Part shown: positions 2,395 through 36,815 of the stretch, in pieces | How positions within the stretch are numbered: position 1 is the stretch's first letter | Layout of the letters: each line of letters opens with the position of its first letter | Source of the DNA: a virus | DNA length: 38,459 nt | IMG/VR virus record: IMGVR_UViG_3300031566_000166 | Location: 1 to 38,459 of that record | Direction: 5' to 3' (one strand) | The notes under the pieces: generated by a model | The model's database searches: none | Told to the model about the DNA's origin: nothing | What the model saw: the letters and a program-made list of their open reading frames with translations, nothing else | Made by a program: the position numbers and the translations under genes

Positions 2395-2712
2395 ATGGCA
2401 AGATTACTTGTTGATAGTGAAGGGAATTGTAGGATTACTTTGACGTTCAAGCTTCAGGACCGGCCATTGCAAGCAGCATTTTTTAAGCGGCACACGTCCA
2501 GCGGTGCGGCATCTATGGCTTTAGAGAAAATCCTATCTAAAACGGCTATTGACGAAATGCTGCAAGAAGTAAAGCTTGCAAATCAGCGAATTAAGGCACT
2601 ATCTGACTACGTAATGTCAGAGAATATCAATATTATGGGAGAAGAGAAAATCGACACGATCGATGAAACACTCAAAGCCGCCTCATCTCTCAGTTCAGGA
2701 TTCATGTCGTGA
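2395..2712 (+). CDS. Candidate ParR-like centromere-binding adaptor, 105 aa
   Basis: The gene directly follows the ParM-like gene, with a GGAGG site in the end of that gene, so the two form an operon. The N-terminal part (a short beta segment, RITLTFKL, then a polar loop and two helices with GAASMALEKILS) is compatible with a ribbon-helix-helix DNA-binding unit, as in ParR. The C-terminal half is helical and polar, ending in a Ser-rich tail; in ParR proteins the C-terminus contacts the ParM filament. No clear direct-repeat centromere lies next to the operon. The GATAC repeat cluster at 34826-35025 is a possible candidate. The family assignment rests on context and is tentative. Confidence 0.45.
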   Translation: MARLLVDSEGNCRITLTFKLQDRPLQAAFFKRHTSSGAASMALEKILSKTAIDEMLQEVKLANQRIKALSDYVMSENINIMGEEKIDTIDETLKAASSLSSGFMS

Positions 2713-2713
2713 T

Positions 2714-3064
2714 CTACCATCGCCAGCGGTGCGCTTGGATTAAGGTGCCGCTGGTTATCCCTTGCCAGCAGAAACGGATCAAGGTGCGAAGTGTCCAGGG
2801 GTGAAGCTCGAAAGTATCTCCATTAATCAGCAGCACGTCATCATACAACATTCCGAGCTTTCTGCCATCATAGAGCATGGCCGTCTTTCCCCAGGTTATC
2901 TCAGCGAACTGATAGCCTGTTTCAATTCTAAGTAACCAACATACAACCGCCTTGAGGAATATTCCCCAATATGAGGGGCGATCAATCAAGATCTTATCCT
3001 CATCGGCAGAAGGCCCCAACGGACAAGGTGTCTCTTCCTTCGCAATCATATATAATTTCTTCAC
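2714..3064 (-). CDS. Hypothetical protein at the end of the late operon, 116 aa
   Basis: This is the last gene of the leftward late unit. Its start overlaps the stop of the holin-like gene by 4 bases, which indicates translational coupling. The protein is rich in Trp, Leu and Arg in the second half, with one moderately hydrophobic stretch (IFLKAVVCWLLRI at about 35-47) that could be amphipathic. I looked for endolysin signatures (lysozyme, amidase, NlpC/P60, M15 or M23 peptidase) and found none. Its place beside a candidate holin makes a lysis role possible, but nothing in the sequence shows it. It ends only one base from the convergent (+) gene. Confidence 0.55.
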   Translation of the reverse strand: MKKLYMIAKEETPCPLGPSADEDKILIDRPSYWGIFLKAVVCWLLRIETGYQFAEITWGKTAMLYDGRKLGMLYDDVLLINGDTFELHPWTLRTLIRFCWQGITSGTLIQAHRWRW

Positions 3065-3510
3065 CGCTCGAATTTCTCCACAATATGACTACAACTTCGC
3101 GTAAGCTGATTGACGCTGATCGCCATCTTTTGGACGTGCTCAATCAATATCTTCGTCTCGTGATGGTGTTCCTCTGCTGATTTCTGGTGTTCCTCGGATC
3201 GCCTTCTGGCCTCCTCATGGCTGCGAAAGTGGGTGTTCACCCCCTGAAAAGCGGTGTCTATGTGTTTACTCAAGAAGTGCCCTACCGGAAAAAAGAAGAG
3301 ACCATAAAGCAGAACTAAGGCGATGAAAAATAGAAAAGCGTACCCAGCAGCATTATTGAGTAGCTCGACAAAAGCACTTATGTTGGCGCGTTGTTCCGAA
3401 GTGAATCCGGCGATAAAGTAGAGCCCAGCCCCTAAATAGATTAAGAAAGCATAGGGGCTTTTAAGGGCTGATGAGATTACCGCAGCCTGGGTGACGGGCT
3501 TCAATGACAT
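3061..3510 (-). CDS. Two-helix membrane protein with charged C-terminal coiled coil, candidate holin, 149 aa
   Basis: Two strong membrane segments are visible at about residues 19-37 and 54-78, followed by a highly charged, His/Glu/Arg-rich helical tail of about 65 residues with coiled-coil character (SEEHQKSAEEHHHE region). Size, two segments and a position just after the fibre genes at the end of the late operon fit a holin or another lysis accessory protein. The charged tail is long for a class II holin. No endolysin is recognisable next to it. The start lies directly after the stop of the upstream gene, so it is co-translated. Confidence 0.55.
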   Translation of the reverse strand: MSLKPVTQAAVISSALKSPYAFLIYLGAGLYFIAGFTSEQRANISAFVELLNNAAGYAFLFFIALVLLYGLFFFPVGHFLSKHIDTAFQGVNTHFRSHEEARRRSEEHQKSAEEHHHETKILIEHVQKMAISVNQLTRSCSHIVEKFER

Positions 3511-3828
3511 CTATATATGCTTCCTGGCTTCAATTTCGGCGGCAGCTGTCATAATTGCCGTCTTTCCTCTGCCGGCTGGAATATGTAGATCCGAGTTTTC
3601 AAGCACTTCTCGCAGGATTTCAAGGGTAAGGTTTACAGCATCCTGGATCGGCCCCTCCATCTCTTCAGCCCATTTCATATTTTCATTGACCTGCTCTGTA
3701 GCACCTTCAACGATCTCCTCAACGGAACCTTTAAGCTCCTTCATCTCTTTGCTTTTCGCCGCTATAATAACGTTTGCTACAATTTTTCCCAATTTCGGTA
3801 AAACTAAACCCACGATGTCTAAGTTCAT
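3511..3828 (-). CDS. Small helical hypothetical protein, 105 aa
   Basis: The protein is predicted mostly helical and acidic in the middle (repeats of Glu/Val heptads around 35-80), with an amphipathic or weakly membrane-seeking N-terminus (IVGLVLPKLGKIVANVIIAA at 5-24). It is preceded by an AAAAGGAGAACATAA leader that is nearly identical to those before the genes starting at 6213 and 6789. It lies between the exported fibre-like genes and the candidate holin, so it may be part of a lysis or virion-associated group. The function is not recognised. Confidence 0.55.
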   Translation of the reverse strand: MNLDIVGLVLPKLGKIVANVIIAAKSKEMKELKGSVEEIVEGATEQVNENMKWAEEMEGPIQDAVNLTLEILREVLENSDLHIPAGRGKTAIMTAAAEIEARKHI

Positions 3829-3845
3829 TTTATGTTCTCCTTTTG

Positions 3846-4679
3846 TTAGAATATATAGCCATGACCCATAAAGTCAAGGTCACAGTCTGCACTTGTTGTT
3901 ATTTTGAGCGCATGCCCTGCGCCAGAAAAAACAAAGGGCGTTCTAAATGCATGTGAAAATATGAAATTCTTCTTTGTCGCGACCTCTATACTCCCCTTAA
4001 ACAGGTAGTTTCCGGCTGAGTCCGTTTCGTCAAATAGTTTTACTTGGCAATCTGTTGTACCTGAAATAACAATCACTATATCCGTGGCAACTCCGACATA
4101 TCCTACCGGGACTTGATACACTACTGTATTAGTCTGCGCCGTGGTGTAAGATGCATCTGTGTGAATCGGCGCGTACCCGAAACGATGCGGAGGAGGGCCG
4201 AACTCTTGCCCTTCAAGTGTGGACACGGGCCCTAAAACTTGCCCTATGATTGTTCCAGGGGCTGATCCTGCGCTTGACGTTCGCCACCTAAAAAGCCTTG
4301 CGCCTGAAACAGAACCAACAAAATTAGATCCATTATTCGTTTCTGATTCGATCACGTCATCCGTTATACTCCGCATAGAGACACGCTCAAACGTTATCCC
4401 GTCAAAAGAGGCTTCAAAACACACGATCCCGCCCGTTGGAGCGGTTGCCTTAAAACCTATAGAAGAGTAACCAGACACTGATATGGTCACCGCGTCGTTA
4501 ACATTCCCCCCTAAGTTTCCTGTCGATCCGAACTCAAGGAAGTCTACCGGAGAATTACGAAAGCCCTGTTTTGCGTCATCGAAGCCCTTGATCCCAAGCT
4601 GAGTCAAACTGTCAGTATCGGCACCCAATGCTGTAAAACATAGGCAGGCGAAACAGGCTAATAGAGCAATGCTTTTCAT
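3846..4679 (-). CDS. Signal-peptide-bearing beta-rich virion/fibre-cluster protein, 277 aa
   Basis: The N-terminus is a classical Sec signal peptide: Lys3, a hydrophobic core ALLACFACLCFTAL, and a likely cleavage around ALGA at residues 17-20. The rest is Gly/Ser/Thr-rich and beta-sheet-like, similar in composition to phage tail-fibre or head-fibre proteins, with no further membrane segment. It follows the 510-residue signal-peptide protein by one base, with an AGGGGAA site within that gene's end. A cytoplasmic virion assembly protein would not need export, so this is odd. It could be a periplasmic or surface-exposed protein, or a fibre whose signal peptide has another use. Confidence 0.65.
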   Translation of the reverse strand: MKSIALLACFACLCFTALGADTDSLTQLGIKGFDDAKQGFRNSPVDFLEFGSTGNLGGNVNDAVTISVSGYSSIGFKATAPTGGIVCFEASFDGITFERVSMRSITDDVIESETNNGSNFVGSVSGARLFRWRTSSAGSAPGTIIGQVLGPVSTLEGQEFGPPPHRFGYAPIHTDASYTTAQTNTVVYQVPVGYVGVATDIVIVISGTTDCQVKLFDETDSAGNYLFKGSIEVATKKNFIFSHAFRTPFVFSGAGHALKITTSADCDLDFMGHGYIF

Positions 4680-4680
4680 T

Positions 4681-6213
4681 CTATTCCCCTATATATTCGG
4701 CGTTCATATTAGCATAGGTAAGCGTAATATCAACGCTTCCCCCGAGGTTGTGACGCATTCTAAAATCAAGATCTACAGGTACGCTGCTCACATTAATAAG
4801 GCCAGAGAATGCTGCTGCTCCAGCGTCGGAAGTTGTCGCAATCTTACGCTGGAAATGTATCTGATTCTGCTCGACTCCACCAAGGAACGCCGATCCGATT
4901 AAGACGGCGTTGGCCGTTCCAGAAAACATCGAAACCGCCCCATTGACACGGTATACGCCTGTTTTTGTAATTGTGATCTTATTATTAACCTGGTCTGGGG
5001 TTGCGTTATTGGAAAGGCCGTTGACGGCCCATTGATCAAAGAGAGTGTATCCCGCCCCCGTTGCTACTGCCGTAGCGGTACTATTATCATGAGTGTATAT
5101 CTCCGCATAGGTCCCCTGGTAGTAGAGTAGCTCATTGATGGTCATTTCATCGCCAGTATTAGTGATTGTTGTGTCGCCGTTAGCGTCCGTCGCAATCTCT
5201 GAGTATACCGACCCATCCGTGTGTGTAAGGCGTAATTGGGGATCAGTGTCCAGCACTTCAACCTTGCGGTCTGGTCCAATTGTGCCGATCCCTATATCAC
5301 CATCATCATCCACGGTAAGATCCCCCGCATTGCTACTACTGGCTGACAGCTTAATACTTGAAATGTTGTTTCCTACCCTATTCACGTTTATCGCGACAAC
5401 GGGCGACAAGCCACTGTCAGCTGGCAGACTTATTTGAAAACTGCCCGAATTATAGTTAATCTTCGCCAGTTTTGAGCCCGCTGTGCCGTCTGTGTCGAAG
5501 AGACCTACATTAACGACAGTCCCAGATACTGTAAGCGGCAGCAGGGGGGCCGTAGGGCCGATCCCTACATACCCATTATCTGAGTCGGCAGAAAAAAACG
5601 GGGTTCCGGCTGCATTCTGTAATACGAGGAAATCAGTACTATCTTCAGATGGACTTAGCACAATATTCGCCTTCTGATCGTCAGAGCTTCCGCTATGATT
5701 GATAGACACTACTGCTTGCTCATAGCTTTCGCCTCCGCTCTGTTCGGCCTTAAAAATCAGCTTATTCCGGGCCGTGTTCGCATCGCTCTCCGTAGTGTTG
5801 TACAGTGTGATGGAAGGCGTTGAGGCATGCTGTAAGTTCAGATTGTCATAATTCCTTACGCTGGTTGTATTGAGGAATTGAAGGACTTGCCACTGTGTCG
5901 GCGTCCCTGAATAGTCAGCAGACACCCTACCATCCATCTCGGCACTATTATCAACGGTCTGGAGCGCCCCCAGTACTGGATCGAAAACAGACTGTAGGAT
6001 CTGCGTTGCGCTCTCGGTATTTCCAGTTTGGGGGGCAGTGACGGCCCTGGAGAGAGTGTTGACCTGCAAAGCGCCTAATACAGGATCGTAAGCCTGCATA
6101 TATATCTGTGTTGCGCTGTCAGTATTCCCGGTCTGGGGGGCCGCTTGTACTGCGGCCCATACGATCGCCATAAAAAAAGATGCTACCAATAATGTAATTA
6201 TGTTTCTTTTCAC
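4681..6213 (-). CDS. Signal-peptide-bearing tail-fibre/spike-like protein with C1q/TNF-like C-terminus, 510 aa
   Basis: It starts with GTG, preceded by AAGGAGAACATAAG. Residues 1-24 form a Sec signal peptide ending in AVQA. Two copies of an APQTGNT(D/E)SATQI..DPVLGALQ repeat follow (about residues 25-90). The middle has GIG-type repeats (YVGIGPTAP, DIGIGTIGP) common in trimeric tail spikes and collar fibres. The last 140 residues (from about YTHDNSTATA) resemble a trimeric jelly-roll head of the C1q/TNF type, with GVYRVNGAVSMF and the closing NAEYIGE. It is probably a receptor-binding or adhesive protein. The signal peptide is unusual for a phage fibre and is shared with its two neighbours. 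Confidence 0.65.
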   Translation of the reverse strand: MKRNIITLLVASFFMAIVWAAVQAAPQTGNTDSATQIYMQAYDPVLGALQVNTLSRAVTAPQTGNTESATQILQSVFDPVLGALQTVDNSAEMDGRVSADYSGTPTQWQVLQFLNTTSVRNYDNLNLQHASTPSITLYNTTESDANTARNKLIFKAEQSGGESYEQAVVSINHSGSSDDQKANIVLSPSEDSTDFLVLQNAAGTPFFSADSDNGYVGIGPTAPLLPLTVSGTVVNVGLFDTDGTAGSKLAKINYNSGSFQISLPADSGLSPVVAINVNRVGNNISSIKLSASSSNAGDLTVDDDGDIGIGTIGPDRKVEVLDTDPQLRLTHTDGSVYSEIATDANGDTTITNTGDEMTINELLYYQGTYAEIYTHDNSTATAVATGAGYTLFDQWAVNGLSNNATPDQVNNKITITKTGVYRVNGAVSMFSGTANAVLIGSAFLGGVEQNQIHFQRKIATTSDAGAAAFSGLINVSSVPVDLDFRMRHNLGGSVDITLTYANMNAEYIGE

Positions 6214-6228
6214 CTTATGTTCTCCTTT

Positions 6229-6789
6229 TTATGGCAAGTTGAGAAAGGGCGTTGAGCAAAAGCTATCTGTGCTATAAGTTACGCTGTAATTTCCGGCAGG
6301 TTGCCCAGAGACATCAAATACATCCTTACCTCCTGCGTTTGACGCGACAAGGCCAGTGTCAGTGTATGACTCGACCCCGTCCCAACTAAGCAAATAGGGG
6401 GTTTTACCTGCCGATTCGTCGCAGGTAATATCAGTACCAACAACAGCGCATGCAGCCGGGGCCTTGTGATCGTCCGGAACGACTACGCTGGCATAAGTCC
6501 AGTCGCTCAATTTTGAGACGATCCATGAGTACACGTCTGTGGAAAACACGATCCCTAAACTGTCAGATGATCCGGCCTGGACGCGCAACCACGGGACCAT
6601 GACGCTCTGCATGGTATTCGAAGCCCGATAATTGATGTTAATTGTGTTCGCCTTTCCTACGGTCAAGGGAACCCAACCTGTAGCGGCCACCTGACAAGCT
6701 CTTGTCTCGATCTGTGTCAACTCAATTGCTCCCACCGAAACTGTTAACACCAACGCCATTAATACTATTAAAAAACATACATTCTTCAT
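6229..6789 (-). CDS. Signal-peptide-bearing hypothetical protein with four mature cysteines, 186 aa
   Basis: Residues 1-21 form a Sec signal peptide (MKN followed by a long Val/Leu-rich core, cleavage likely after SVGA). The mature part holds four Cys that could form disulfides, in keeping with export to an oxidising compartment: one early (about residue 32), a pair around residues 110-120, and one near the C-terminus. It is beta-rich with an immunoglobulin-like ending (GQPAGNYSVTYSTDSF). The AAAAGGAGAATATAAG leader before the start matches those of two other genes in this cluster. The family is not recognised. Confidence 0.6.
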   Translation of the reverse strand: MKNVCFLIVLMALVLTVSVGAIELTQIETRACQVAATGWVPLTVGKANTININYRASNTMQSVMVPWLRVQAGSSDSLGIVFSTDVYSWIVSKLSDWTYASVVVPDDHKAPAACAVVGTDITCDESAGKTPYLLSWDGVESYTDTGLVASNAGGKDVFDVSGQPAGNYSVTYSTDSFCSTPFLNLP

Positions 6790-6803
6790 CTTATATTCTC
6801 CTT

Positions 6804-6968
6804 TTATTCTGTTATAGCTTCAATTTTATTAATGATTACAGACAGTACCTCTCGTAATTCGGGATCAACCGACAACGCTTTAATAAGATCTCTAATACTT
6901 TCGCTCGTGACTCCTTCCATAGCTTTTTTATGCTTCTTCCTTTCATTCTCCTTTCCTTCGTGTATCAT
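6804..6968 (-). CDS. Small charged protein, 54 aa
   Basis: This short gene is supported by an AGGAGG site 6 bases before its ATG and by an ATGA overlap with the stop of the upstream gene. The protein begins with a Lys/Glu-rich stretch (MIHEGKENERKKHKKAM) and ends with a predicted amphipathic helix (PELREVLSVIINKIEAITE). There is no membrane segment and no known family. It sits between a baseplate/fibre-type gene and the exported genes. Confidence 0.6.
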   Translation of the reverse strand: MIHEGKENERKKHKKAMEGVTSESIRDLIKALSVDPELREVLSVIINKIEAITE

Positions 6969-7582
6969 TCTATGCCTCCTTCACTATCTATGCGGCCAGA
7001 GCAAATATCAAAAAGGTAAATCATTCCAGGTAACTGGGTAGAGGCGCGATCCTCAGTGTCGGACCACACAAAACCCTCTATCTTGACTGCTCCTTGCGTA
7101 TTCTTATAGGCCGATACCGCAAAATAATGATCAGGGTATGGGCTGAGATCAATAAGAATATCATCTACAAGAACATCTTCGCCACTGATCCAGCCCGCGC
7201 TAATTCCAACGGAACCCCCCGGGAAATACTCAAAAATGGGGCGTGTACTGATATTAAGCTCTCCGACCTCATCAATAGAAATCATGCGAGCCTTTATTAC
7301 TTGGTGTTCCATACCCTTCGGAACTTCTATAATCTCGTAATCATCAGGCTTGCCACCTCCCACCTTAACCGCTTCATTTTTCCTCCGTGAGATCCAGGCA
7401 TCATACTGTAAATTAAGTTTGTCAATCCCGTCCTGAAACATTTTTTTGACTGATCCGTTGACGTTTTTCGGTAGTCCCTCCAACTGTTGTCGGAGTTCAT
7501 TAATTTTTTCTTGAACATTAAAGTGACCAGACTCCCTTATATTAAGGATCTTGCCGCTCTTATTATTCTTAAAAAGTATCAT
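6965..7582 (-). CDS. Tail-cluster protein with coiled-coil N-terminal half, 205 aa
   Basis: The first 80 residues are predicted helical with heptad-like Leu spacing (EKINELRQQLEGL; DGIDKLNLQYDAW), followed by a beta-rich C-terminal half. This organisation is common in fibre-connector or chaperone proteins. Its start overlaps the stop of the upstream repeat protein by 4 bases, and its stop overlaps the next small gene by 4 bases, so it belongs to the tail operon. I do not recognise the family. Confidence 0.6.
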   Translation of the reverse strand: MILFKNNKSGKILNIRESGHFNVQEKINELRQQLEGLPKNVNGSVKKMFQDGIDKLNLQYDAWISRRKNEAVKVGGGKPDDYEIIEVPKGMEHQVIKARMISIDEVGELNISTRPIFEYFPGGSVGISAGWISGEDVLVDDILIDLSPYPDHYFAVSAYKNTQGAVKIEGFVWSDTEDRASTQLPGMIYLFDICSGRIDSEGGIE

Positions 7583-8499
7583 GCGATTTCTCCTATTGCG
7601 ATATAGAAAAATGATTCCTGGTTTGTGTTTAACGCTAAACCCACTTCGAACTCTCCAGTAGTTGAAACGTCCTGAATATAGTCATTGAGAAATAATGTGG
7701 CGGCGACATCCTCGGCCTTGGTATCATCCGCAGCCATTACATCTGTGGCATACCATAACGGCGATCCTGACGAATCAAGATATATAATAAGTTCATGTAT
7801 ATCAATCCTTGGATTGGAGAGGGAGACGGTTCTATCATCCGATCCGTTCCCATCATAGAACCCAGTTTCAATCGCCATCTGACCTGAGAATGGGTTTGTA
7901 GTGTGAGCCCCTGCGTCATTGTGGGCCACGAGAAATTGGGTCTCTATGTGGTTTTCAACCTTATTCGGATCTTCAGTACCAGTACCTGTTGAGGCGTCGG
8001 TGCTGTCGCCATCTTCAACCCACACAGGATCTGAACCCCCAGCCCCAGGCGTGATCGTAGTCAAAACATCATACCCCAGCGCAATTACATAGTAATCCCT
8101 CGACCCATTATTAAGATTGGCATCAACCGTGAATTCTCCTGGGGTAGAACCATCCGTGATATGCGTTCCGATTACTTCTGTGTCCTTGTTATAGTAGGCC
8201 CCTTGTGTTTCACTATCCCAGTGCCAGTAAGCAATGCTTGCGTCATCATAGATAATCAATAGGGCTATCTGCACGTTGGCGTTAGAAAGCGAGATTGTAC
8301 GGTTTGCGCTACCATTCCCGGCATAAGTCAATTCCTCGCCCTGGATCGCGTAATACCGATCTGTGTGTATTCCAGCGGTATCATGTTCTGCAATGAATTG
8401 AGCCCAGATATACTGTCCAGCCTTGTTTTTCGTATCCGCGTATTTCGGGTCGTTCGCCTTCACCACAAGATCGCTATCGGTCAAGTATGCTATCGCCAT
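7579..8499 (-). CDS. Tail fibre/baseplate protein with two copies of a repeated ~120-aa domain, 306 aa
   Basis: Two homologous domains are visible by eye at about residues 25-150 and 180-306. Each contains F.AEHD/HND.AG.HT, a G.GS.(D/N)RT(I/V)SLSN segment, a hydrophobic strand ending in IIY, a GEF(T/E)V strand and a closing YV/IA.G motif. A third copy makes up the next upstream gene (8501-8962). The repeated His in the H(D/N)xAGxHT segment could coordinate metal or line a trimer axis, but this is speculation. Position beside the baseplate genes suggests a structural role as a fibre or its adaptor. Confidence 0.65.
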   Translation of the reverse strand: MAIAYLTDSDLVVKANDPKYADTKNKAGQYIWAQFIAEHDTAGIHTDRYYAIQGEELTYAGNGSANRTISLSNANVQIALLIIYDDASIAYWHWDSETQGAYYNKDTEVIGTHITDGSTPGEFTVDANLNNGSRDYYVIALGYDVLTTITPGAGGSDPVWVEDGDSTDASTGTGTEDPNKVENHIETQFLVAHNDAGAHTTNPFSGQMAIETGFYDGNGSDDRTVSLSNPRIDIHELIIYLDSSGSPLWYATDVMAADDTKAEDVAATLFLNDYIQDVSTTGEFEVGLALNTNQESFFYIAIGEIA

Positions 8500-8500
8500 C

Positions 8501-8962
8501 TTATACCTCCGGGCCGTAGGCTACATAATAATAATCGCTTAGATTCTGATTGACACGTAGGCTTGTCCCCACTTGAAAAGTACCGGTGCCCTGACTCTGG
8601 ATATGATCTGAACTGAAAGTGCCTCCTATTAGAGATACTTTGGCATTATCTCCGGCTATACTTTCATTCCTCAGAACTGAGTTTTCATCGGCCTCTGACC
8701 ATATACGAATATACTTAATATCAAGAGCGGCATTGGATAGGCTTATGTTTCTATCATCAGCACCGTTTCCGGTGTATGTTCCAGTTTCCATTACCCATAG
8801 CCCAGAGGAGAGACTCGCAGCGTGTACGCCGTTTTTCTGATGTTCAGCGGTAAAGACATCCCATATCTCCTTACAAGCCCGGTTGAAGGTGTCTGTATTT
8901 CCGGTTGTCGTATTATGCCCATAGAGTAGTTCCGTATATTGCACCCATTCCGGTATTCCCAT
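8501..8962 (-). CDS. Single-domain homologue of the adjacent repeat fibre protein, 153 aa
   Basis: Residues about 35-153 align by eye with both domains of the neighbouring 306-residue protein: FTAEHQKNGVHA, ETGTYTGNGADDRNISLSN, an I.IW strand, GTFQVG and a final YYVAYG. The upstream 30 residues are unique and may attach the protein to the baseplate. Gene duplication and fusion is the simplest explanation of the three-copy set. The stop and start are one base apart from the neighbours on each side, as in a structural operon. Confidence 0.65.
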   Translation of the reverse strand: MGIPEWVQYTELLYGHNTTTGNTDTFNRACKEIWDVFTAEHQKNGVHAASLSSGLWVMETGTYTGNGADDRNISLSNAALDIKYIRIWSEADENSVLRNESIAGDNAKVSLIGGTFSSDHIQSQGTGTFQVGTSLRVNQNLSDYYYVAYGPEV

Positions 8963-10698
8963 TAATAGTCCCCCCTATCGCGAGTCCTGCCAGTTTCCGT
9001 ACCATCACCGATCCCCCATGAACCATCCCATAATAGAGGCTCGCTCAACAAGAATTTGCCCGTGTCTTTGATCTCATATTGCATAGTGTAGTCATTGAGT
9101 CCGTAGCCCACCGAAACAACCTTTCCAATCTGGTTTTTTAGACGTTCTCCGTCCTCATCGTAGCGTTTTTGCCATGAAAATAAAACATAGTCGTTCGGCT
9201 CGACCGCTACATTTTTCATATCCTGCTCTTGGATATTCATGATCCAGGTGGGTTTTTTGTACTCTTCCACAATATACTCTTGGATTTGGGCTACGTTTGC
9301 GGTTTTTCGTACCCAATTGAGATCTAAGGTCTTGTTTCTCACCCCATACAGGGCTTGAGACTCTGTATCTTTCGTGCTTTCTCCATCATCCGAGACAAGA
9401 AAATTACTAAGTACATCTCTCTTGTAGCGCCGGTCTTTCTTATCGCCTGTGAGCGCGTAATTGACGATCACCTGATTAATTATATTCTTCCGGTTTCTGC
9501 TGCCCGACACAGACATGATACCCGACTCTCTAATCGTTCCAGCCGTCTCGTAGACCCTACTAAGATCTTGCTCAAAATCTATAACCAGTTCACCTATTGA
9601 ATTGAGGTAAGCTCGGCCCAGAAAGCTTGAAAGAATGTCATTAATCGTGAAAAATGGTGTATTTTCAGAGACAATAAAGCCGGCACACTCATAGCCCTGA
9701 TCGTCGGCGAATTGACGCGCCTTTGAAAAAGAGGTCGCATTTTGGGGCGTAGCGTCACCCACGAAAGACAAGAAATCCTGAACCACATCTACTGGATTGG
9801 TGTAATAAGTTGCTGCTGGGTTTCCACTGGATGCCTTCCCCCTAAATTTCGCAGTTACGTTGCCGACAGGATCGTATGATCCTGATATCTGAATATAAGA
9901 GATCGAGAGTTGTTCTTGGTATGGGCTATCCGATACTATAGAAGAGACCTTATTGGATATGTTGCCGGTGTCATCATACACCTCTAAGAAGCTTGATAGG
10001 CCTATACTGTAGATAGCGTGTCCTGCCAGACAATATTTCTTCGTGGCGACATCTATTAGAGGGCAGAAAACCACGCCGCGCTCCCCAGTATTCTCCGTAC
10101 AATCTCCATAGACAATAGGCAGGAAACTTGCTTCATCACCAGGATCGCTATATATTCCGGCTGTTACAGGAGTGTAATTCTCATAGAGCGTTCTTGTCGT
10201 ACTGTCAGAAACAATGCGGACATGCTCTCTGGCAAGATGCTCTTGCGACACAATGCCATTATCAAGAGTGATGTATTCTCCTTTACTCAGGCCAGAGAAT
10301 CCCAAAATTAGGGAGGCAGTATTTTGCAGAAACGAGTCCCCAATATCGCCGGATAGGATGTCCGAAAAGTAGGCATCTGTATTGTCAAGGGTGTAAATCA
10401 GAGACTGTATCTCATTCTGCTGTAGGCTGCCGATCAGGTCTTGAGCCGAAAATGCCGCTTTGAGCCGCAATTGTCCGAAACTAACGACTCTCGCTCCAGT
10501 CGAAGAAATGCCCTGTATCAGACCATCTGCACCGTCGCCGACAAGCCAAGATCCATCCCAAAACAGGGAGCCGCCAGCAAGTTCTGGTTTCTCCTTGCCG
10601 AAAATTCTGGCTTGGGAATTACTCGAAAGCAATAGATAGATCAGGGGCTTATAGTTCGCCTTCAAGCGTTCCAAGAAGTTTTTTGAAATTTCCCTCAT
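8962..10698 (-). CDS. Predicted tail hub/baseplate protein, 578 aa
   Basis: Position two genes after the tape measure gene, size and beta-rich composition fit a tail hub or tip protein that nucleates the tail and connects to fibres. A WDGSW.(I/V)GDG motif occurs twice, near residues 48-57 and again near 557-566, which is unusual and may mark equivalent attachment points. There is no signal peptide. The gene overlaps the previous one by 4 bases. I do not recognise a named family with certainty; a central hub like T4 gp27/Mu gp44 is the best guess. Confidence 0.55.
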   Translation of the reverse strand: MREISKNFLERLKANYKPLIYLLLSSNSQARIFGKEKPELAGGSLFWDGSWLVGDGADGLIQGISSTGARVVSFGQLRLKAAFSAQDLIGSLQQNEIQSLIYTLDNTDAYFSDILSGDIGDSFLQNTASLILGFSGLSKGEYITLDNGIVSQEHLAREHVRIVSDSTTRTLYENYTPVTAGIYSDPGDEASFLPIVYGDCTENTGERGVVFCPLIDVATKKYCLAGHAIYSIGLSSFLEVYDDTGNISNKVSSIVSDSPYQEQLSISYIQISGSYDPVGNVTAKFRGKASSGNPAATYYTNPVDVVQDFLSFVGDATPQNATSFSKARQFADDQGYECAGFIVSENTPFFTINDILSSFLGRAYLNSIGELVIDFEQDLSRVYETAGTIRESGIMSVSGSRNRKNIINQVIVNYALTGDKKDRRYKRDVLSNFLVSDDGESTKDTESQALYGVRNKTLDLNWVRKTANVAQIQEYIVEEYKKPTWIMNIQEQDMKNVAVEPNDYVLFSWQKRYDEDGERLKNQIGKVVSVGYGLNDYTMQYEIKDTGKFLLSEPLLWDGSWGIGDGTETGRTRDRGDY

Positions 10699-11765
10699 AG
10701 CCGTGTCCTTGGAACCTCTTCAAAATTAATACTTGCCAGCCTATCGATCTGGTATCTGAAAAACGAGGCTTCAAAGTCTGCAATGATCCGACATAGCCGC
10801 ATAGTGTCTGATTCATCGAAAAAATAATGAATAAATAGAGGCAGAACTTGGCCTGTATCTACATCGTAAACGCTATCCCACATTGTTCTCAAACTGTCCT
10901 TGTCGGCCCTGGTTAAGAATGGGAACGTCAGGGAAAAAATATCTTGAGTGTTATAGATGTACTGTCTACGAATGCCCGACGCCGAACGCGAATCATCCAT
11001 GTTTCTTTGGGTCGTTATTCCACTACCCCAGGGCGTCTTAGCCCACGTCTCTGCGAGTTGAAGGTAATCCCCTAAATACCAATTTGCAATCTCCAATCCA
11101 TTAGCTACAACGAGTCGCCAATATCTGTATGTTTCGTCGATATAGTCTACTATCGCATTATTGCCAGGGCTTGAAAGAACCTGCGAGAAGGCCGGGGCTC
11201 CCCATGCGTCAGAGGTGTTTCCTTCAAGGGTGACCGTAGCGCCTATCGTGGTATCCAGCAGGACACACGCCTTGACATTCTTAGCCGAGCCGAGATCGGC
11301 CACTATGTTGTAGTTTGCGGCTGACGACTTAAAGTAAATGTCCCGGTCAAGATCAATAAGATTCTGGGGTGAAAACGTAGCATAGGCCCAGAAGTTCCAG
11401 GAGTCGTTCAACTCGAAATCGTCCCCAGAACCAGGATCCCAGGCAACCTTTTTTCCATCGGTTCCGATCGTTGTGAAAGTCTCTGCCGTTGGTACTCCGG
11501 AAGCTTCCCAGGTTCCGGAGGCCGTCTCATTCGTTCGCCATCTGAACGTTGCTTGAGCAATTTCTTTGCCCGCTGACACATCATCTATCTGTACAGTAGT
11601 TATTAGATCGTTGACTCCCGTAAAGCTTCCAGAGGCTTTCATCGTCGCGGATCCTGTTCCAGTCTTCAGTGTTCCCGCAATCTGGCCCGCTGCCTGAGAT
11701 GATGGTGTAAGAGTGGCTTCATTCAGAAAGTTATCATATAGGAATCTATGGGCACCGTAGGCCAT
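10695..11765 (-). CDS. Predicted distal-tail/baseplate protein with discoidin-like segment, 356 aa
   Basis: This is the first gene after the tape measure gene, where the distal tail protein usually lies. Residues about 160-240 (DLGSAKNVKACVLLD, then RYWRLVV) resemble a galactose-binding F5/8C (discoidin) fold. The C-terminal 90 residues (SLTFPFLTRADKD, followed by a beta-rich ending SINFEEVPRTRL) resemble the end of other phage tail-tip proteins. It overlaps its neighbours by 1 and 4 bases. A role in carbohydrate contact at the tail tip is possible but is inference. Confidence 0.6.
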   Translation of the reverse strand: MAYGAHRFLYDNFLNEATLTPSSQAAGQIAGTLKTGTGSATMKASGSFTGVNDLITTVQIDDVSAGKEIAQATFRWRTNETASGTWEASGVPTAETFTTIGTDGKKVAWDPGSGDDFELNDSWNFWAYATFSPQNLIDLDRDIYFKSSAANYNIVADLGSAKNVKACVLLDTTIGATVTLEGNTSDAWGAPAFSQVLSSPGNNAIVDYIDETYRYWRLVVANGLEIANWYLGDYLQLAETWAKTPWGSGITTQRNMDDSRSASGIRRQYIYNTQDIFSLTFPFLTRADKDSLRTMWDSVYDVDTGQVLPLFIHYFFDESDTMRLCRIIADFEASFFRYQIDRLASINFEEVPRTRL

Positions 11766-13888
11766 TAGTTCACCCCTCCAAGCCCTGAGAACTTGCCGCT
11801 ATTTTCTGCCTGCTTTCGAGTGATCTGGTCTGCAAGCGCCCCCAAAGAAAATTCATCAACTACATTGGTTCCGTTCAAATTTATAGTCAAACCCCCTTCC
11901 CCTAATCTCCCAGCCTGTGATCGGGTTTCCGGTTCTGGCCTTAGTGGTTGAATGGGCCATTGTTGCTGAATCGCAGGACTTATACCAGATGTATTAGGTT
12001 GCGTCCGCGCCCTTGTTGTAGGGTCGATCAAGCCTACTGGAAGCATTGTTTTGCCTGCTGTGGTTCCCGCAAAAGTCGCCATGCCGGAAGAGCCGAAGAT
12101 TTGGCCAGATGTGTTGACTTGATTTCCCATCTTCTTCAATGCACTATTACTGCCTATAATGGAATTGGTTAGCCCGTCCTGTGATTCAGTTGTTTTTTTA
12201 ATCCACATATCCATGTCTGGAAAAGTAGATTTCTCATACGCAACCACTCCCATTTGTACGAGCTTGCCAATTATTTTGTCCATCACTTCCCCCATTGTTC
12301 CCAGCGGATCGATGACTTTCTTAATCGCCATAGCTGTTGAATTGAACACATCAACAACGGTATCTTTTATTTTTAGAGCTAAATTTATAACTGCCTCGAA
12401 TTGGCTTGTTAATATATTGTTAAATTCTCGAAATACATCTCCTGTATTCCCTATAGTATCAGGCAGTTTAGCTATAATTTCAAGAAGTTTTTCAAAGCCT
12501 GCCCATATCACGGGCAAAGCCTTGTTAATTAGTGCGAAATTAGCTGCTGCTACCTGTTTAAATCCTTCAAATGCAACTCGCGCCTTATTGATGATGACAT
12601 GCCAGTCGAGCCCTTGGACGAAAACCGCTGCTCTTTGCGCAAGGTCTACGAGACGGTTCTTGATTTCATCCAAAAAAGGCGTCATGATCTTCTGGATCAG
12701 TTGGGTGCGTGTAATCCAGGTGGTGAAATCAATCAATATTGGGTTTATGGCCTTCAAAAGACCGTTGAATGCGTTAATTATAGGCCCCCCGATCTGATTT
12801 TTTAAAATTTCGAGTATGTTTTTCAGCGACTGCCATTGGTTATTAAAGCCCTCCATTGCAGACTTGAACTCGTCTGTATTTGCTGTACCTGCGGCGTACT
12901 GCTCCTCTGAGTTTTTGAGGGCGGTATTTACCGTATCAATGTTTTGTGTCATAGAGGAAAAGATCTGAGAGACGCGCCGGCCCGACAATCCTACGTCCTT
13001 GAGCGCCTGATTGAAGGCCACAGGAGTTTCAATCTTCCCGAACTCATTAAGGACGAATTGAAGCGCGCTAACCATGTCCGTATTCATCAAGTTTACAAAC
13101 TCGGCCCCTTGTTCTTGGCTTAATCCCATTACAGAAATAAAATCATTGACACGTGTAGACATGATTTGAAAAATAGCTGACACATTATTGCCAGCAGTTT
13201 GCGCTTGAGGGGAGAAAGAGGAAACTGCGGCAGCAAGCCCAAAAAGATTTTCAGCGCTCCCTTTGAAGCCATCGAAAGAATCCACCATAGCTTGAGCAGC
13301 ACTTAAAATCTTGCTCTCCTGAGTATTCATGTTATTTCCAAGAAACACTACTGAACTCGCGGCTTGTTCAATATTAGAGGAGATGTCAAGATCTAAAATC
13401 GAGAGTATACGCCCAAAGTTTTCGGCTGCCTTTGATGCGGTAACGTCAGAAGCCAGTTGAAACTTGCCTATCGCCACCGCAAACTCATCAAGACTGCTTG
13501 CGGCGATCCCCATTTGTGCGCCAGTCGCGGCAATCTCTGATAATGTGTTGATGGCGATCCCGCCAGCTACCCCAAACTCATCTATTGGTTTTAAAACCGT
13601 TTCTTCAAGAATCCTCCCAAATTGGTTCATCTCTTCTGTTGTGAGATTTGCGGTCTTTTTGACCTGAATTAGGCCATCTTCAAACTTTGCGAAAGACTTT
13701 GCAGAGTCAACGCCCAAGTCAAACAAGGCCCGTGAAGTTTTTCGCAACCCATCAACAAAAATACCAGTGAACCCTGCAAGCACTCTCTCAGCAATGCCCT
13801 GAGTTTTCTTAAGTTCAGAATTGAACTTCTTCAAGACTGCGCTCGCATCATCTTGTATTTTAAGCTGAAAAACTATCGTGTCGGCCAT
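11765..13888 (-). CDS. Tail tape measure protein, 707 aa
   Basis: The long helical sequence has the TP901/PhageMin-tail core: an N-terminal helical part, then IAATGAQMGIAASSLDEFAVAIGKF with the typical spacing of Ala/Gly-rich helices, FGRILSILDL, and AGNNVSAIFQIMSTRVNDF. A hydrophobic segment in the middle (about 355-385, GGPIINAFNGLLKAINPILIDF) could be the membrane-penetrating part. At roughly 0.15 nm per residue it implies a tail near 100 nm. It follows the tail completion genes and precedes the distal tail gene, which is the standard order. Confidence 0.85.
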   Translation of the reverse strand: MADTIVFQLKIQDDASAVLKKFNSELKKTQGIAERVLAGFTGIFVDGLRKTSRALFDLGVDSAKSFAKFEDGLIQVKKTANLTTEEMNQFGRILEETVLKPIDEFGVAGGIAINTLSEIAATGAQMGIAASSLDEFAVAIGKFQLASDVTASKAAENFGRILSILDLDISSNIEQAASSVVFLGNNMNTQESKILSAAQAMVDSFDGFKGSAENLFGLAAAVSSFSPQAQTAGNNVSAIFQIMSTRVNDFISVMGLSQEQGAEFVNLMNTDMVSALQFVLNEFGKIETPVAFNQALKDVGLSGRRVSQIFSSMTQNIDTVNTALKNSEEQYAAGTANTDEFKSAMEGFNNQWQSLKNILEILKNQIGGPIINAFNGLLKAINPILIDFTTWITRTQLIQKIMTPFLDEIKNRLVDLAQRAAVFVQGLDWHVIINKARVAFEGFKQVAAANFALINKALPVIWAGFEKLLEIIAKLPDTIGNTGDVFREFNNILTSQFEAVINLALKIKDTVVDVFNSTAMAIKKVIDPLGTMGEVMDKIIGKLVQMGVVAYEKSTFPDMDMWIKKTTESQDGLTNSIIGSNSALKKMGNQVNTSGQIFGSSGMATFAGTTAGKTMLPVGLIDPTTRARTQPNTSGISPAIQQQWPIQPLRPEPETRSQAGRLGEGGLTINLNGTNVVDEFSLGALADQITRKQAENSGKFSGLGGVN

Positions 13889-16923: not shown

Positions 16924-17880
16924 TTACGGGAAAACCCCAGTAACAAACCAATTAGTACCATCGGAAGCAATCGAGACGGCCTCACTGTCTGCGTCCATAG
17001 TGTACGTGGCCGCGCCGCTTATTGTCTCTGCTCCCTCGGTACGGATGACAATGTTATTAGCGTTAGCGTTTGCGTCCTCATCGTAGAATGTCAGGGCTCT
17101 GCCGTCTACTAATAAGTCAGAGTCAAGAAACAGATCAACTGTTCCTGTTGTGGTGTAGTCCACCGCTACAATATAGGCTTTAGATGTTGAATCGAGCGTG
17201 TAACTTGAGGCCGCAACCGAAAAGATAGGGGTGTCAACCCAGGAACTAAAGGTTGTTCCTTCGTCCACCGACAACGATCCCGAAGTGCTGACCGTATCTG
17301 CTGCTGCTGAAACGCTCAATACGTCCGTGTCAACGTCAAGATCACCGCTTAATGTAGCCGCGCCTACAAGCGCATGAGTCGTGGCCGTATAGGTCACTGT
17401 TCCGTCAACCGTATTGTCAATTGTCTCGTCATTGACCAGCGTCACTACACCGGTTGAAGTAACGCTAAAAACTTCAGATTTAGCGGCCCCCGCTGCCATA
17501 AGCTCAACTGAGAATTTGGCGTCTTCCGAAGCCGCCGTTACGTCAGTCATGACAGCATTGACGGCCATAACATCCTCATTGTTTGCCGCGCTTGTTTCCT
17601 GGGTGTAGACAATGCCAGCCCCGATCCCGTTAGCCGGGACGCCACTTGTTTCGTGCGTCAACCCCAGCACCTCTTGAACCGTGTCCGTCTTAGCAGAAGA
17701 GCTTGTCAAGTTGGAGAGTGTTGTCAGCTCGATCTTAAATGCGTCATCGTTCGAGCTTGCATTGATTACGTACTCAATGAGTTCTGTTAACCGTTCTGTG
17801 CCACCGAAAGAGGTTACTCCTACGGCGAAAACTAAGCAGACAGCGAAGATCGCCGCTGCATATCGTGTGCTATTTTTCAT
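16924..17880 (-). CDS. Signal-peptide-bearing Ser/Thr-rich beta protein within the head-tail cluster, 318 aa
   Basis: The N-terminus (MKNSTRYAAAIFAVCLVFAVGVTSFGG) is a Sec signal peptide with basic start, 15-residue hydrophobic core and a plausible cleavage near residue 26. The mature part is acidic and very rich in Thr, Ser, Ala and Val, with repeated strand-turn units, ending in EAVSIASDGTNWFVTGVFP, a type of end often seen in phage fibres or virion decorations. It overlaps the connector gene by 4 bases (ATGA), so it is truly part of the head-tail operon. This is the fourth exported-looking protein in the structural region. Confidence 0.65.
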   Translation of the reverse strand: MKNSTRYAAAIFAVCLVFAVGVTSFGGTERLTELIEYVINASSNDDAFKIELTTLSNLTSSSAKTDTVQEVLGLTHETSGVPANGIGAGIVYTQETSAANNEDVMAVNAVMTDVTAASEDAKFSVELMAAGAAKSEVFSVTSTGVVTLVNDETIDNTVDGTVTYTATTHALVGAATLSGDLDVDTDVLSVSAAADTVSTSGSLSVDEGTTFSSWVDTPIFSVAASSYTLDSTSKAYIVAVDYTTTGTVDLFLDSDLLVDGRALTFYDEDANANANNIVIRTEGAETISGAATYTMDADSEAVSIASDGTNWFVTGVFP

Positions 17881-18356: not shown

Positions 18357-19382
18357 CTATACCCCGTCCAATCTCGCTCCGTAAGCCTTCCCGTAGACTT
18401 CGTAGGCGTTAAAATACCCCATAATAAGTTCAACTGTTCCCATCAACCAAGCGTACTGATCAACCTTTTCGAGAGCAATGAAGCCCCCTACAGATTCCGC
18501 AGGCTCATAGACGAATTCTTTCCCCCATGTCGGGATTGATTGTCTACCACCTCCAGCATTAGGATCGACACGCCCAAACCATACGTAGCGCTTGGAGATG
18601 CTCGTTTTGTAGCCGAAGATGTCAGTCTTAGTCTGCGAGGCTTGCGGTAAACTGGAATCGTCTACAGATTCTGCCTCGAGCAGGATTATTTTTAGACCCA
18701 GTGTACGCTCTAACCAGGGCAAGGTTATGTTGGGATCAGTAGATTCCTTGATCGGGGCCGAGGACTCACTTGCATCCAACAATTGCGGATTGAGCAATAG
18801 ATCGCAATAAACATCACGACCACAGGCCATGTGTGTCAAATGTCGATTGTTTTTCTTAATCACATTGACATCACTGCGGGGCTTAGAAAGAAGATTGGAC
18901 CAGGGAACTGTAGAGATAAGGTCGGCATCTTGCGGATCTGCTCCGCCGATCTCATACAGCTGATCTGAATTATAGCTCCCATCTGCCTCAATAACCTCAA
19001 CTCCAGCCGCTTCGCGGTTGATCAATGTTCGATGTCTTAAAAACATCCACTCATCATCCATCCAGGCATCAGGCGTAGCGTAACCATGGGCCATTGGGTT
19101 CTTAATCTTCGCAAGCTCAAGCAGCCTTGACAATCCTCGCGGGCTAAGAGATGCGCTTGTTGTCGAATCGCTTCTATTGATTTGCTCCGGATATCCGTCA
19201 CGGCGTAAGAGCCCACTTGTTCGCTTGAACCAATCATTGATAGCGTCCGTACGATACAGGAATTCTAAATCAGCACGTCTGTCTGGAACAAAGATCTCGC
19301 CAATCTTAAAATCACTGTCTTCATTAGCGTAACGGTACGCGAGATCGGCTTGGTCTTTTTTGATATATGTTAAGCTGCTCAT
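18357..19382 (-). CDS. Predicted major capsid protein, 341 aa
   Basis: The length of 341 and the position between the decoration gene and the head-tail connector match a major capsid protein. An early acidic stretch (ANEDSDFKIGEIFVPDRRADLEFLYRTD) and a long central part with HK97-type alternation are visible. There is no proteolytic delta domain: the decoration and scaffold genes are separate, as in lambda and Mu. GGAGG stands before the start. No diagnostic residue pattern is available by eye, so this is a high-probability contextual call. Confidence 0.75.
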   Translation of the reverse strand: MSSLTYIKKDQADLAYRYANEDSDFKIGEIFVPDRRADLEFLYRTDAINDWFKRTSGLLRRDGYPEQINRSDSTTSASLSPRGLSRLLELAKIKNPMAHGYATPDAWMDDEWMFLRHRTLINREAAGVEVIEADGSYNSDQLYEIGGADPQDADLISTVPWSNLLSKPRSDVNVIKKNNRHLTHMACGRDVYCDLLLNPQLLDASESSAPIKESTDPNITLPWLERTLGLKIILLEAESVDDSSLPQASQTKTDIFGYKTSISKRYVWFGRVDPNAGGGRQSIPTWGKEFVYEPAESVGGFIALEKVDQYAWLMGTVELIMGYFNAYEVYGKAYGARLDGV

Positions 19383-19827: not shown

Positions 19828-21051
19828 TTAATTCCCTCCTTGAGTATCACGCTCGAGTTTGGCAAAAAATCCATGCTGCGCCGAATATTCTCTGTCACTG
19901 AGCGCCATGAAATGAGCCTGAGCGCGCTTGATTGGTTTTCCGATCTCTGCCGCCTCTTTCATCAGCTTAATGATTTTAGCGTCAAGGACGGACTCGGCAC
20001 TATCAGCGGGATCGGTGTCCTGTATACCAGCCTGGATTACACCGGGAGACTCCGGAATAGTCAAGTTACCCTCAATCGCCAGCTTAATAATTCCTTCTAA
20101 TGCCCGTTTGAACGCTGCGGTATTACTGATTTCTTCTCCATTGCTCAACTTAACCACGTTGCCGGAAGACAGAAATACTGGCGTGATCAAGTCCTCTGCG
20201 GCCTTAGTTAGACCGAAGTCACTTGTAAGTTTCACAATGGCTGACATTGCATCAGCTTCATGGGCTCTGCGATCTGCCCGATCGATCTTCTCTTCTTGTA
20301 GACGAACGATTTCTCTCAGCTTTTCTTTTTCGTCCCCATCGGCCTGCGCTTGGGCTTCTAAGGCATCTAAGCGCCCAATGAGACTCTTATGATCATCAGC
20401 CGAGAGAGTTACTACGCCTTGCTTTTTATCATCCTGCATGGGTGTCTCTCCTTCTCTATCCGTATTAATATTTGGCGCATCAAAATACACCGTTTGTACT
20501 CCCATTTCATCGGCTGAGAGTTTGACCGCAAATCCTGCGCTTTGAGGCACCGCTGGTTTAGTGTGGCGGTCCAGAAAAGAAACAGCCCTAACTACAACCG
20601 GGTACACCTCCCCAGTATCTGGGTTTTTGAAATTCGGCAAAAATTCAACAGAACGAAAGGGGAATTCGCTTGAAAGAAGCTTCGCCAGTTCTGGATCAAC
20701 ATTCTCAAAGTTGGTAACAAGCCATTCTTCGCCGTTGATTAGGCGTGTTTCAGGGAACATCTTAGCCGTCCTTGCCCAGTCCTTCACAGCCTCAGGCAAG
20801 AGCTTCAAGTGGTACTCGTTCTGAAAAATATCATGATTGACATTGATGAATCCTGGGACTGGTTCTTCGCTCCATTGCGGATTGTTGCCCCTGTAAATAC
20901 CGGTATCAATAGCCTCTTTCAGGTAAGGCATGGCCTTAATTGTATCAGAGGCCACCTGTTTCATGTCGAGCATTTCGGTCCCCTTCCAGTTCCCGCGAGT
21001 CAATACCGGAACCTCCAATAATTCAGCCATCTTCTTAATCGCATCTGCCAT
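19828..21051 (-). CDS. Mu gpI-like prohead protease/scaffold protein, 407 aa
   Basis: The N-terminal half (about 1-200) resembles Mu I protein-type prohead proteases: GTEMLDMKQVASDTIKAMPYLK and FRSVEFLPNFKNPDTGEVYPVVVRAVSFLDRH. A charged coiled-coil of about 50 residues (220-275, IGRLDALEAQ to EEKIDRADRRAHEADA) and a helical C-terminus follow, which is the scaffold part. In Mu, one gene supplies both functions by an internal start. There is no obvious internal start with a strong site here. It overlaps the portal stop by 1 base and contains the site for the decoration gene near its end. Confidence 0.7.
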   Translation of the reverse strand: MADAIKKMAELLEVPVLTRGNWKGTEMLDMKQVASDTIKAMPYLKEAIDTGIYRGNNPQWSEEPVPGFINVNHDIFQNEYHLKLLPEAVKDWARTAKMFPETRLINGEEWLVTNFENVDPELAKLLSSEFPFRSVEFLPNFKNPDTGEVYPVVVRAVSFLDRHTKPAVPQSAGFAVKLSADEMGVQTVYFDAPNINTDREGETPMQDDKKQGVVTLSADDHKSLIGRLDALEAQAQADGDEKEKLREIVRLQEEKIDRADRRAHEADAMSAIVKLTSDFGLTKAAEDLITPVFLSSGNVVKLSNGEEISNTAAFKRALEGIIKLAIEGNLTIPESPGVIQAGIQDTDPADSAESVLDAKIIKLMKEAAEIGKPIKRAQAHFMALSDREYSAQHGFFAKLERDTQGGN

Positions 21052-24674: not shown

Positions 24675-26021
24675 TCAAAAAGAAATTATCTCAGGGATTC
24701 GCTCATGGAGATAACCTGCTACCCTTACCACGACATAGCGCAAGCAGTCCATGCAATGATTGTCTTGATCCATCGGTTCCCGCTTCTTTTTTGCTGTAGT
24801 CTGCTTATCTTCCGGATACATGGAGTATTTTCCGAGTTCGTCAATGGTGTGTTCGCATGTTCGAAATATTTTTACTCTGGTCGATCCATCGGTACGTACA
24901 CTCATAAAGGAGCGGACTTGTTCAATTCCAGGCCATATGTCTTTTTCCGCTGGTTCTGAATGAATCCCCTGGAAGGCATACTGCATGCGCTCCTGCTTGT
25001 CATGATCGGCCACGGTGTCCAGGAATGGCAAGAGTCCTGCCCCGGCAGTGGTGACGATATCTGAATGTTGCTTGTGCATATTCTCCGCATGTATTTCTAT
25101 TAGGCAATCGTTCTTCACGTATTCGGAGATGACATAAAACGTGGTTCCGTCAAACGCGACAACAAGCGAAACTGTCGGGTCAACAGCCCCGAAGTCAATA
25201 GCCCTATAAATAGGCCAATCCGAAGGAACAGGAAAAGGATCTATGACGTGAACGTCTGGGTTGAAATCGCCATAAACAAGCCCTTTAAAAGTTACAAAGT
25301 CACCGTCAATTCTGGCCTTACGATCTTTTTCTGAAAGCATTTCTATAAATGCGTCCTTCTCTTCCTGGGGGATATATGGATTGTCCAAGAGAGACATGGT
25401 TCCACACCAAATATTTTTTGACGTGGCCGCCTTCCTAAATATCTCGTGGTATACGTATGTTTTTCCCTTCAACGGCGTCATAGAACCCAAAATACGGCCC
25501 TTGTTATCCAAAGTTCCACGGTAGACCTCTTTGTAGATATCCTCTGGGGACTCTTCGTCAAAATGCGCTATGTCCCACTTTGTCCCTTGTAAATTCTCCC
25601 GACCCTGCTCATAGCTACCAAAGTGCAGCCAATATCCGGACTTGATAAATTTGACTATTTCAGGGATCTCCTTCTGCTTGGAGATCCAAGAAATGACCTT
25701 CGCTTCGCCTGGCGCTATATGCTTTTTATATGTCGGCCATAGGTAGAGACCAACCCCCTTAAAACTATTCGTCAGCGCGATCCCCTTACCATTGTTTATC
25801 TTTCGGGCAATGGCTACATGTTCTCCCGATACCGTATATGTTTTAGAGCTTCGGTTGCCTCCGAACAGGAAGCGGACTTTTTCTGGTCGCTTGTGAAATT
25901 CAGCAGCGGTTTTGTTTGATGGCGTATACCTTGGAAGTCCTATGTTGCGTTGTAAAGATAGGTTTTCTCCTTGCTTTGTGGCCCTTGACCTGGCTCGTTT
26001 AGCGTACCGTTCAACCCTCAT
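24675..26021 (-). CDS. terL: Terminase large subunit, 448 aa
   Basis: The ATPase part shows Walker A FGGNRSSKT (54-61, the GxxRxGKS/T variant of phage terminases), Walker B WDIAHFDEE with D155 and catalytic E156, and the coupling motif GSMTPL near 179-184. The nuclease part shows RAIDFG with D276 at 274-278, and an acidic end DNHCMDCLRY that supplies further metal ligands. The length is typical of TerL. The enzyme packages concatemeric DNA into the prohead through the portal. The start overlaps the previous stop by 4 bases. Confidence 0.92.
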   Translation of the reverse strand: MRVERYAKRARSRATKQGENLSLQRNIGLPRYTPSNKTAAEFHKRPEKVRFLFGGNRSSKTYTVSGEHVAIARKINNGKGIALTNSFKGVGLYLWPTYKKHIAPGEAKVISWISKQKEIPEIVKFIKSGYWLHFGSYEQGRENLQGTKWDIAHFDEESPEDIYKEVYRGTLDNKGRILGSMTPLKGKTYVYHEIFRKAATSKNIWCGTMSLLDNPYIPQEEKDAFIEMLSEKDRKARIDGDFVTFKGLVYGDFNPDVHVIDPFPVPSDWPIYRAIDFGAVDPTVSLVVAFDGTTFYVISEYVKNDCLIEIHAENMHKQHSDIVTTAGAGLLPFLDTVADHDKQERMQYAFQGIHSEPAEKDIWPGIEQVRSFMSVRTDGSTRVKIFRTCEHTIDELGKYSMYPEDKQTTAKKKREPMDQDNHCMDCLRYVVVRVAGYLHERIPEIISF

Positions 26022-36743: not shown

Positions 36744-36815
36744 AATAGCCCCACACAGAAACAACCCTTGACTTACAGGGTATTCCGATAAAAACTTAAA
36801 CAATTGGAGGTATTT

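Follow-up and report, generated by a model that had tools for sequence, protein, structure and literature searches.

Gene organization around the cassette

The window, that is, the whole stretch of DNA analysed, is a 38,459-base virus record of IMG/VR with a siphovirus-like gene set lying mostly on the minus strand. Genes for a terminase (24675-26021), a portal with a head-morphogenesis part (21051-23045), a putative major capsid protein (18357-19382) and a tape measure (11765-13888) were identified. Three adjacent open reading frames on the minus strand make up the cassette considered here: P1 (3846-4679, 277 aa), P2 (4681-6213, 510 aa, with a GTG start) and P3 (6229-6789, 186 aa). A sequence-only reading of this DNA had assigned Sec signal peptides to these three genes. 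The reading frames were confirmed, and each product indeed starts with a basic n-region of one or two Lys/Arg residues, followed by a hydrophobic core and a plausible cleavage site. Additionally, each of the three genes is preceded by a Shine-Dalgarno sequence.

On one side, the cassette faces three ordinary fibre-type genes without signals (6965-7582, 7579-8499 and 8501-8962, minus strand), all of which are kept in the distant relative G019 described below. The product of the last one matched the tail fibre family phrog_24898 (E=2e-4), and these neighbouring genes would be the receptor-binding genes of the phage. A small ORF of 54 aa (6804-6968, minus strand) fills the gap between them and the cassette, and no terminator-like site was found on the minus strand of 2600-9200. 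Therefore, the cassette appears to be a continuation of the tail genes, which makes it unlike a separately transcribed moron.

On the other side lie three small minus-strand genes (3511-3828, 3061-3510 and 2714-3064), at least one of which encodes transmembrane segments according to hydropathy. A weak match to the holin family phrog_2879 (E=0.089) was obtained for this group, and any part in lysis, as a holin or otherwise, is conjecture. G019 has similar-looking small genes that could not be aligned with those of the window. Nearly identical ribosome-binding leaders (AAAAGGAGAAyATAAr) were found before 3511-3828, 4681-6213 and 6229-6789, at 3815-3848, 6200-6233 and 6776-6809, respectively.

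Signal sequences and domains of the cassette proteins

Signals were called with our own rule-based caller, which was calibrated on 49 kb of E. coli K-12. There, 11 of 12 exported, none of 23 cytoplasmic and 3 of 9 inner-membrane proteins were called, and the only exported protein that was missed is a Tat substrate. The lipobox rule was slightly changed after this calibration and before the shuffle test, in which 0.7-3% of composition-shuffled copies passed overall (P1, 2.5%; P2, 1.0%; P3, 3.0%). The caller also accepts approximately 5% of phage ORFs with 100 aa or more, so that a single signal-bearing gene is unremarkable. Three such genes in a row, together with adjacent ones at the same site in two relatives, are not. 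Beyond the triplet, the fibre-like protein P318 (16924-17880, minus strand) starts in a similar way, which brings the fibre-like proteins with export signals in this phage to at least four. No lipobox cysteine is present in any of the four.

The N-terminus of P1 reads MKSIALLACFACLCFTALG, followed by AD after the predicted cleavage site, so that the signal covers approximately residues 1-19 (4623-4679). It is followed by a domain whose V.FEAS.DG.TF motif many phage proteins share and, at the C-terminus, by a beta part. The single-sequence fold of P1 was poor (mean pLDDT 38.7) and was left out of the fold search. Neither Pfam and PHROG nor tblastn against deposited phages returned a match for P1. 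As a separate possibility, P1 was considered as a lipoprotein with an 'LLAC' ending at residue 9, which was rejected because this cysteine lies too close to the N-terminus.

P2 starts with MKRNIITLLVASFFMAIVWAAVQA, followed by AP, and its signal extends over approximately residues 1-24 (6142-6213). Two copies of the repeat 'PQTGNT.SATQ....DPVLGALQ' follow (approximately 5938-6141), then a fibre-type 'VGIG..PDRK..LDTDPQLRLTHTDG' region and a variable C-terminal part. The middle region has relatives in phages and Patescibacteria. Close relatives of P2 were absent from the IMG/VR scan, tblastn against deposited phages gave no match with either the whole protein or its C-terminal part, and a 'DPVxGAL' pattern derived from the repeat matched only unrelated proteins. 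The last 150 residues might be C1q-like, a guess for which the database searches gave no match.

P3 starts with MKNVCFLIVLMALVLTVSVGA, followed by IE, with a signal of approximately residues 1-21 (6727-6789) and four cysteines in the mature part. No relatives of P3 were found in Pfam, PHROG or the IMG/VR scan. Fibre or virion domain homology was not detected for P1 and P3 in Pfam and PHROG, and no match of the Lom/Ail kind was found there for P1, P2 or P3. The earlier description of the mature parts as soluble and beta-rich is an impression gained from the sequence.

A virion-type domain behind the signal of P318

P318 (318 aa) is encoded one gene downstream of the putative major capsid gene. 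Its N-terminal 26 or so residues form a hydrophobic signal or signal-anchor and are followed by a fibre-type middle part and a C-terminal domain of the T4 gp9/gp10 type (residues 221-318, 16927-17220). The protein matched the baseplate family phrog_20556 (E=5.7e-8), and a profile search also returned the Acinetobacter phage tailspike 24qj (E=0.0015). An AF2 model based on an alignment of 33 sequences had a block pLDDT of 77-95 over the last 98 residues, and the remainder was poor. Foldseek searches with this domain retrieved CBA120 TSP4, T4 gp9, a Klebsiella phage baseplate, the Pa223 capsid spike and chain AC of the T4 baseplate structure 5iv5 (602 residues, presumably gp10). The best-superposed targets had a probability of 1.00 and an rmsd of 2.4-3.5 over approximately 100 columns. 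These fold matches indicate that in P318 an export signal and a virion-type domain are combined in one protein. Proteins such as T4 gp9 and CBA120 TSP4, whose fold this domain has, assemble into virions in the cytoplasm and carry no signal peptide. A close-relative scan of IMG/VR with P318 found none, and tblastn against deposited phages gave only short matches of low identity.

Conservation of both sites in two distant relatives

Two distant relatives, G018 (L235, 40.2 kb) and G019 (L241, 46.3 kb), were retrieved with a DNA pattern for the GAETIDG motif, which marks a tip-domain family that includes P318. Their genome plan is that of the window phage. Terminase identity to the window is 28% in G018 and 42% in G019, and the portal (30%), capsid protease, tape measure and several tail proteins are common to the three phages. 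A TerL scan of IMG/VR for close relatives of the window phage found none.

In both relatives, a P318 orthologue with 36-42% identity to the window protein is encoded in the capsid-gene region. These orthologues begin with MKRNY and a hydrophobic stretch, and the one in G019 narrowly failed the caller. At the site of the triplet, G018 carries three adjacent signal-bearing genes for proteins of 416, 152 and 389 aa (L285:16360-19476), and G019 carries two, for 296 and 108 aa (L287:13522-14750); plausible Shine-Dalgarno sequences precede these genes. The cassette proteins of both relatives showed no recognisable kinship with those of the window except for P2 and the 296-aa protein, which are weakly similar overall (25% over 213 aa, E=3e-5). 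Behind the signal, both of these proteins contain two copies of a 'PQ...TDS..Q......D...G..Q' repeat, and P2 has a conserved stem and a variable tip, as fibres do. Moreover, the 296-aa protein matched three tail-fibre families of PHROG, and the 389-aa cassette protein of G018 contains a ConA-like lectin domain above the Pfam cut-off. The retention of signals in proteins that have otherwise diverged is the most compelling evidence for their importance. A clear cleavage site is lacking in the P318 orthologues and in the P2 relative of G019, which suggests that some of these proteins may be anchors.

Recurrence of signal-bearing fibre-type genes

The surveys of other phages were seeded by sequence motifs and are not random samples. 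Among the relatives found with the 'PQLRLT..DG' motif of P2, 13 had a visible N-terminus, and six of these were signal-bearing; five of the six records contain a terminase gene and the sixth (L023) a major capsid protein gene. The signal-bearing fibre-motif gene lies between the terminase and capsid genes in L025 and after the capsid gene in G003 and in L023, which has two adjacent signal-bearing genes, and it follows structural-type genes in L028. For the GAETIDG tip domain, signals were found on 10 of 103 distinct proteins (nine by the caller, plus L241). The contexts included myovirus-type fibre loci shortly past the baseplate wedge gene (phrog_6), and one record (G020) contained a signal-bearing triplet. 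In L214 and L223, lipobox proteins adjoin signal-bearing fibres at the fibre locus. As a negative control, the 'V.FEA..DG.T' domain of the P1 type bore a signal in none of approximately 30 IMG/VR loci, many of which are near-identical. These counts indicate that the signals are an addition on a minority of fibre-domain proteins rather than a property of the domains.

The P2 motif was also found in bacterial genomes, chiefly those of Patescibacteria, and some of these proteins are signal-bearing. These surface proteins share with P2 the fibre-type PQLRLT repeat of its middle part; unlike P2, they are encoded by bacterial genes outside virion clusters.

Signal-bearing relatives were not found in two uncultivated spring-phage records, and the other matches of signal-bearing query proteins to deposited phages were either short or lacking. 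A literature search, with most subscription journals outside its range, found no precedent for signal-bearing virion fibres or fibre cassettes.

Several single records deserve mention. In G002 (L149:6208-11253), the signal-bearing protein is 1681 aa long and contains pectate-lyase domains as well as the endosialidase N-extension domain typical of phage tailspikes. At the loci L045 and L016, a Pacearchaeota-binned contig coincides with the viral record G003 in length (38,618 bases), in its 534-aa signal-bearing fibre frame and in the position of the terminase, and the match could reflect either an archaeal virus or mis-binning. Four signal-bearing loci (L028, L187, L212 and L235) come from one Ace Lake co-assembly, IMG 3300035698, which was described in work on the Cloacimonadota and Omnitrophota of a lake in Antarctica (PMC8542988).

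Proposed export and role of the cassette proteins and P318

These observations suggest that the window phage and its relatives probably send fibre-type proteins across the host membrane instead of keeping all of them in the cytoplasm, where virions are built. The sequences show the signals, their conservation at two sites, the fibre or virion character of several of the proteins, the operon context and the recurrence in other phages; from these we infer the export of the four proteins, the cleavage of their signals, their final location and their function. Two conserved sites would encode Sec-targeted proteins derived from fibres: P318 in the capsid-gene region, and the cassette of two or three genes placed between tail-fibre genes and small membrane-protein genes. 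Expressed from the late operon, the products would cross the inner membrane. The signal would probably be cleaved in P1, P2 and P3 and may remain as an anchor in P318 and some orthologues. Fibre domains could then act in the periplasm or at the cell surface, most likely by occupying or altering the receptor or surface of the infected cell. Candidate effects include receptor masking, superinfection exclusion, protection of progeny from debris and adhesion; the effect might be comparable to that of T5 Llp, but achieved with fibre domains.

As a whole, the reading of these proteins as Sec-exported, fibre-derived envelope or surface factors of late infection, serving receptor masking or adhesion, is the one we favour, tentatively and with somewhat less than even confidence. 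The sequence-only reading had considered a phage-encoded surface layer or adhesin, receptor masking, or a fibre whose maturation takes place outside the cytoplasm. The anomaly it pointed out was confirmed and is conserved, and there is good support for the export of fibre-like domains, but nothing found speaks specifically for a surface layer.

Llp offers the closest precedent. In T5 and BF23, llp adjoins the receptor-binding gene and its product is a receptor-blocking lipoprotein, and the Llp proteins of the two phages do the same job without being homologous to each other (PMC4728585). An export signal and a gene beside receptor-binding genes would likewise characterize the window phage, and the mutual non-homology of the T5 and BF23 versions resembles that of the diverged cassette proteins. 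However, Llp is a small lipoprotein without fibre domains, whereas the window proteins have 186-510 aa, no lipobox and, in several cases, fibre or virion-type domains. Lambda Lom is a signal-bearing, exported outer-membrane protein that is also encoded near tail-fibre genes (PMC12309495); in contrast to the window proteins, for which Pfam and PHROG gave no match of this kind, Lom is a beta-barrel. PblA and PblB of the Streptococcus mitis phage SM1 are lysogenic-phage proteins that serve as surface adhesins of the bacterium (PMC2920869); they get there through permeabilisation by holin and lysin, whereas a signal peptide route is proposed for the window proteins.

The envelope or surface role is favoured for several reasons: this precedent of exported, mutually non-homologous receptor blockers, the lectin among the cassette proteins of G018, the lipoproteins of comparable cassettes (L214 and L223), and the presence of ordinary fibres without signals, which makes the exported set look like an addition. 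We lean towards an envelope location on account of the lipoprotein genes in the cassettes of unrelated phages. Against this role, the window proteins have no lipobox for attachment to a surface, and the capsid-region position and virion-type domain of P318 fit a component of the particle. Moreover, no domain could be detected that the ordinary fibres of this phage have in common with its exported proteins; such a domain would be expected if the receptor were masked by a fibre copy, and its absence counts against that version.

Alternative explanations

The most serious alternative, although an unlikely one, is that these proteins belong to the virion as fibres or spikes: they would be exported, would mature beyond the cytoplasm through disulfides and trimerisation, and would become attached to the particle at lysis or later. 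Like virion tail fibres, they are encoded in the tail and virion operon, with core synteny with virion genes kept in the three related phages, and fibre or virion domain homology was found for P318 and the P2 orthologue. The T4 gp9/gp10-type domain, which also matched the Pa223 capsid spike, the fibre-like stem-and-tip layout of P2 and the four cysteines of P3 also fit. On the other hand, all four window proteins differ from virion fibres in their signal sequences, ordinary fibre genes are already there, and lipoproteins in comparable cassettes would be held in a membrane. We know of no tailed phage in which fibres are exported and then joined to the particle. The broader version, in which widespread uncultivated tailed phages pass part of their fibre or spike set through the host Sec system and complete their particles outside the cytoplasm at or after lysis, is slightly less probable still.

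Less probable again is that the signals stay uncleaved and hold fibre domains on the inner membrane facing the periplasm, where they would, for example, retain virion parts or other phage proteins or act at lysis. The long hydrophobic stretches without a clear Ala-X-Ala in the G019 orthologue of P318 and in the P2 relative, similar N-termini in G001 and G003, and the small membrane-protein genes that follow the cassette would agree with such anchors. However, P2 has a good site (AVQA before AP), and the sites are likewise clear in P1 and P3 and in the products of several genes from the cassettes of other phages.

It is quite improbable that the hydrophobic N-terminus is an assembly or membrane-penetration element of a fibre assembled in the cytoplasm, with no export. 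Hydrophobic termini do occur on some phage structural proteins, and the genes sit in a virion operon; nevertheless, a Lys/Arg n-region, a core of signal length and a cleavage-like site are combined in most cases, and comparable cassettes include lipobox variants. Chance hydrophobic N-termini or wrong start sites, which the background pass rate of the caller might suggest, are very improbable and already strongly disfavoured, because three adjacent genes and P318 each have a Shine-Dalgarno sequence and a basic n-region and the pattern recurs at the same sites in two relatives.

Tailed phages are generally assumed to build their virions in the cytoplasm, and any fibre-domain protein of a tail operon is usually annotated as a virion part. 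If Sec-targeted fibre-domain genes are as recurrent as they appear, many 'tail fibres' of metagenomes could be envelope or surface factors of infected cells, or else parts of particles completed outside the cytoplasm. Either outcome would alter host-range prediction based on fibre sequences and would indicate a common, little-noticed remodelling of infected-cell surfaces.

Host search and other features of the window

A phage-specific 578-aa tail protein had no match by tblastn against deposited phages. It was also used to search for a host in approximately 1,170 genomes from the phyla of a Moraniibacteriota, a gammaproteobacterial and an Opitutae MAG, where it gave no match, a result that carries little weight because the search had no positive control. 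Elsewhere in the window, 36222-36743 and 36804-37361 form a duplicated gene pair with 42% identity, to which Pfam assigns no family. Additionally, an actin-like protein of the ALP_N/ParM type, below the Pfam cut-off, is encoded at 1357-2391 and has a weakly similar counterpart in G018, which hints at a phage-plasmid style of life.
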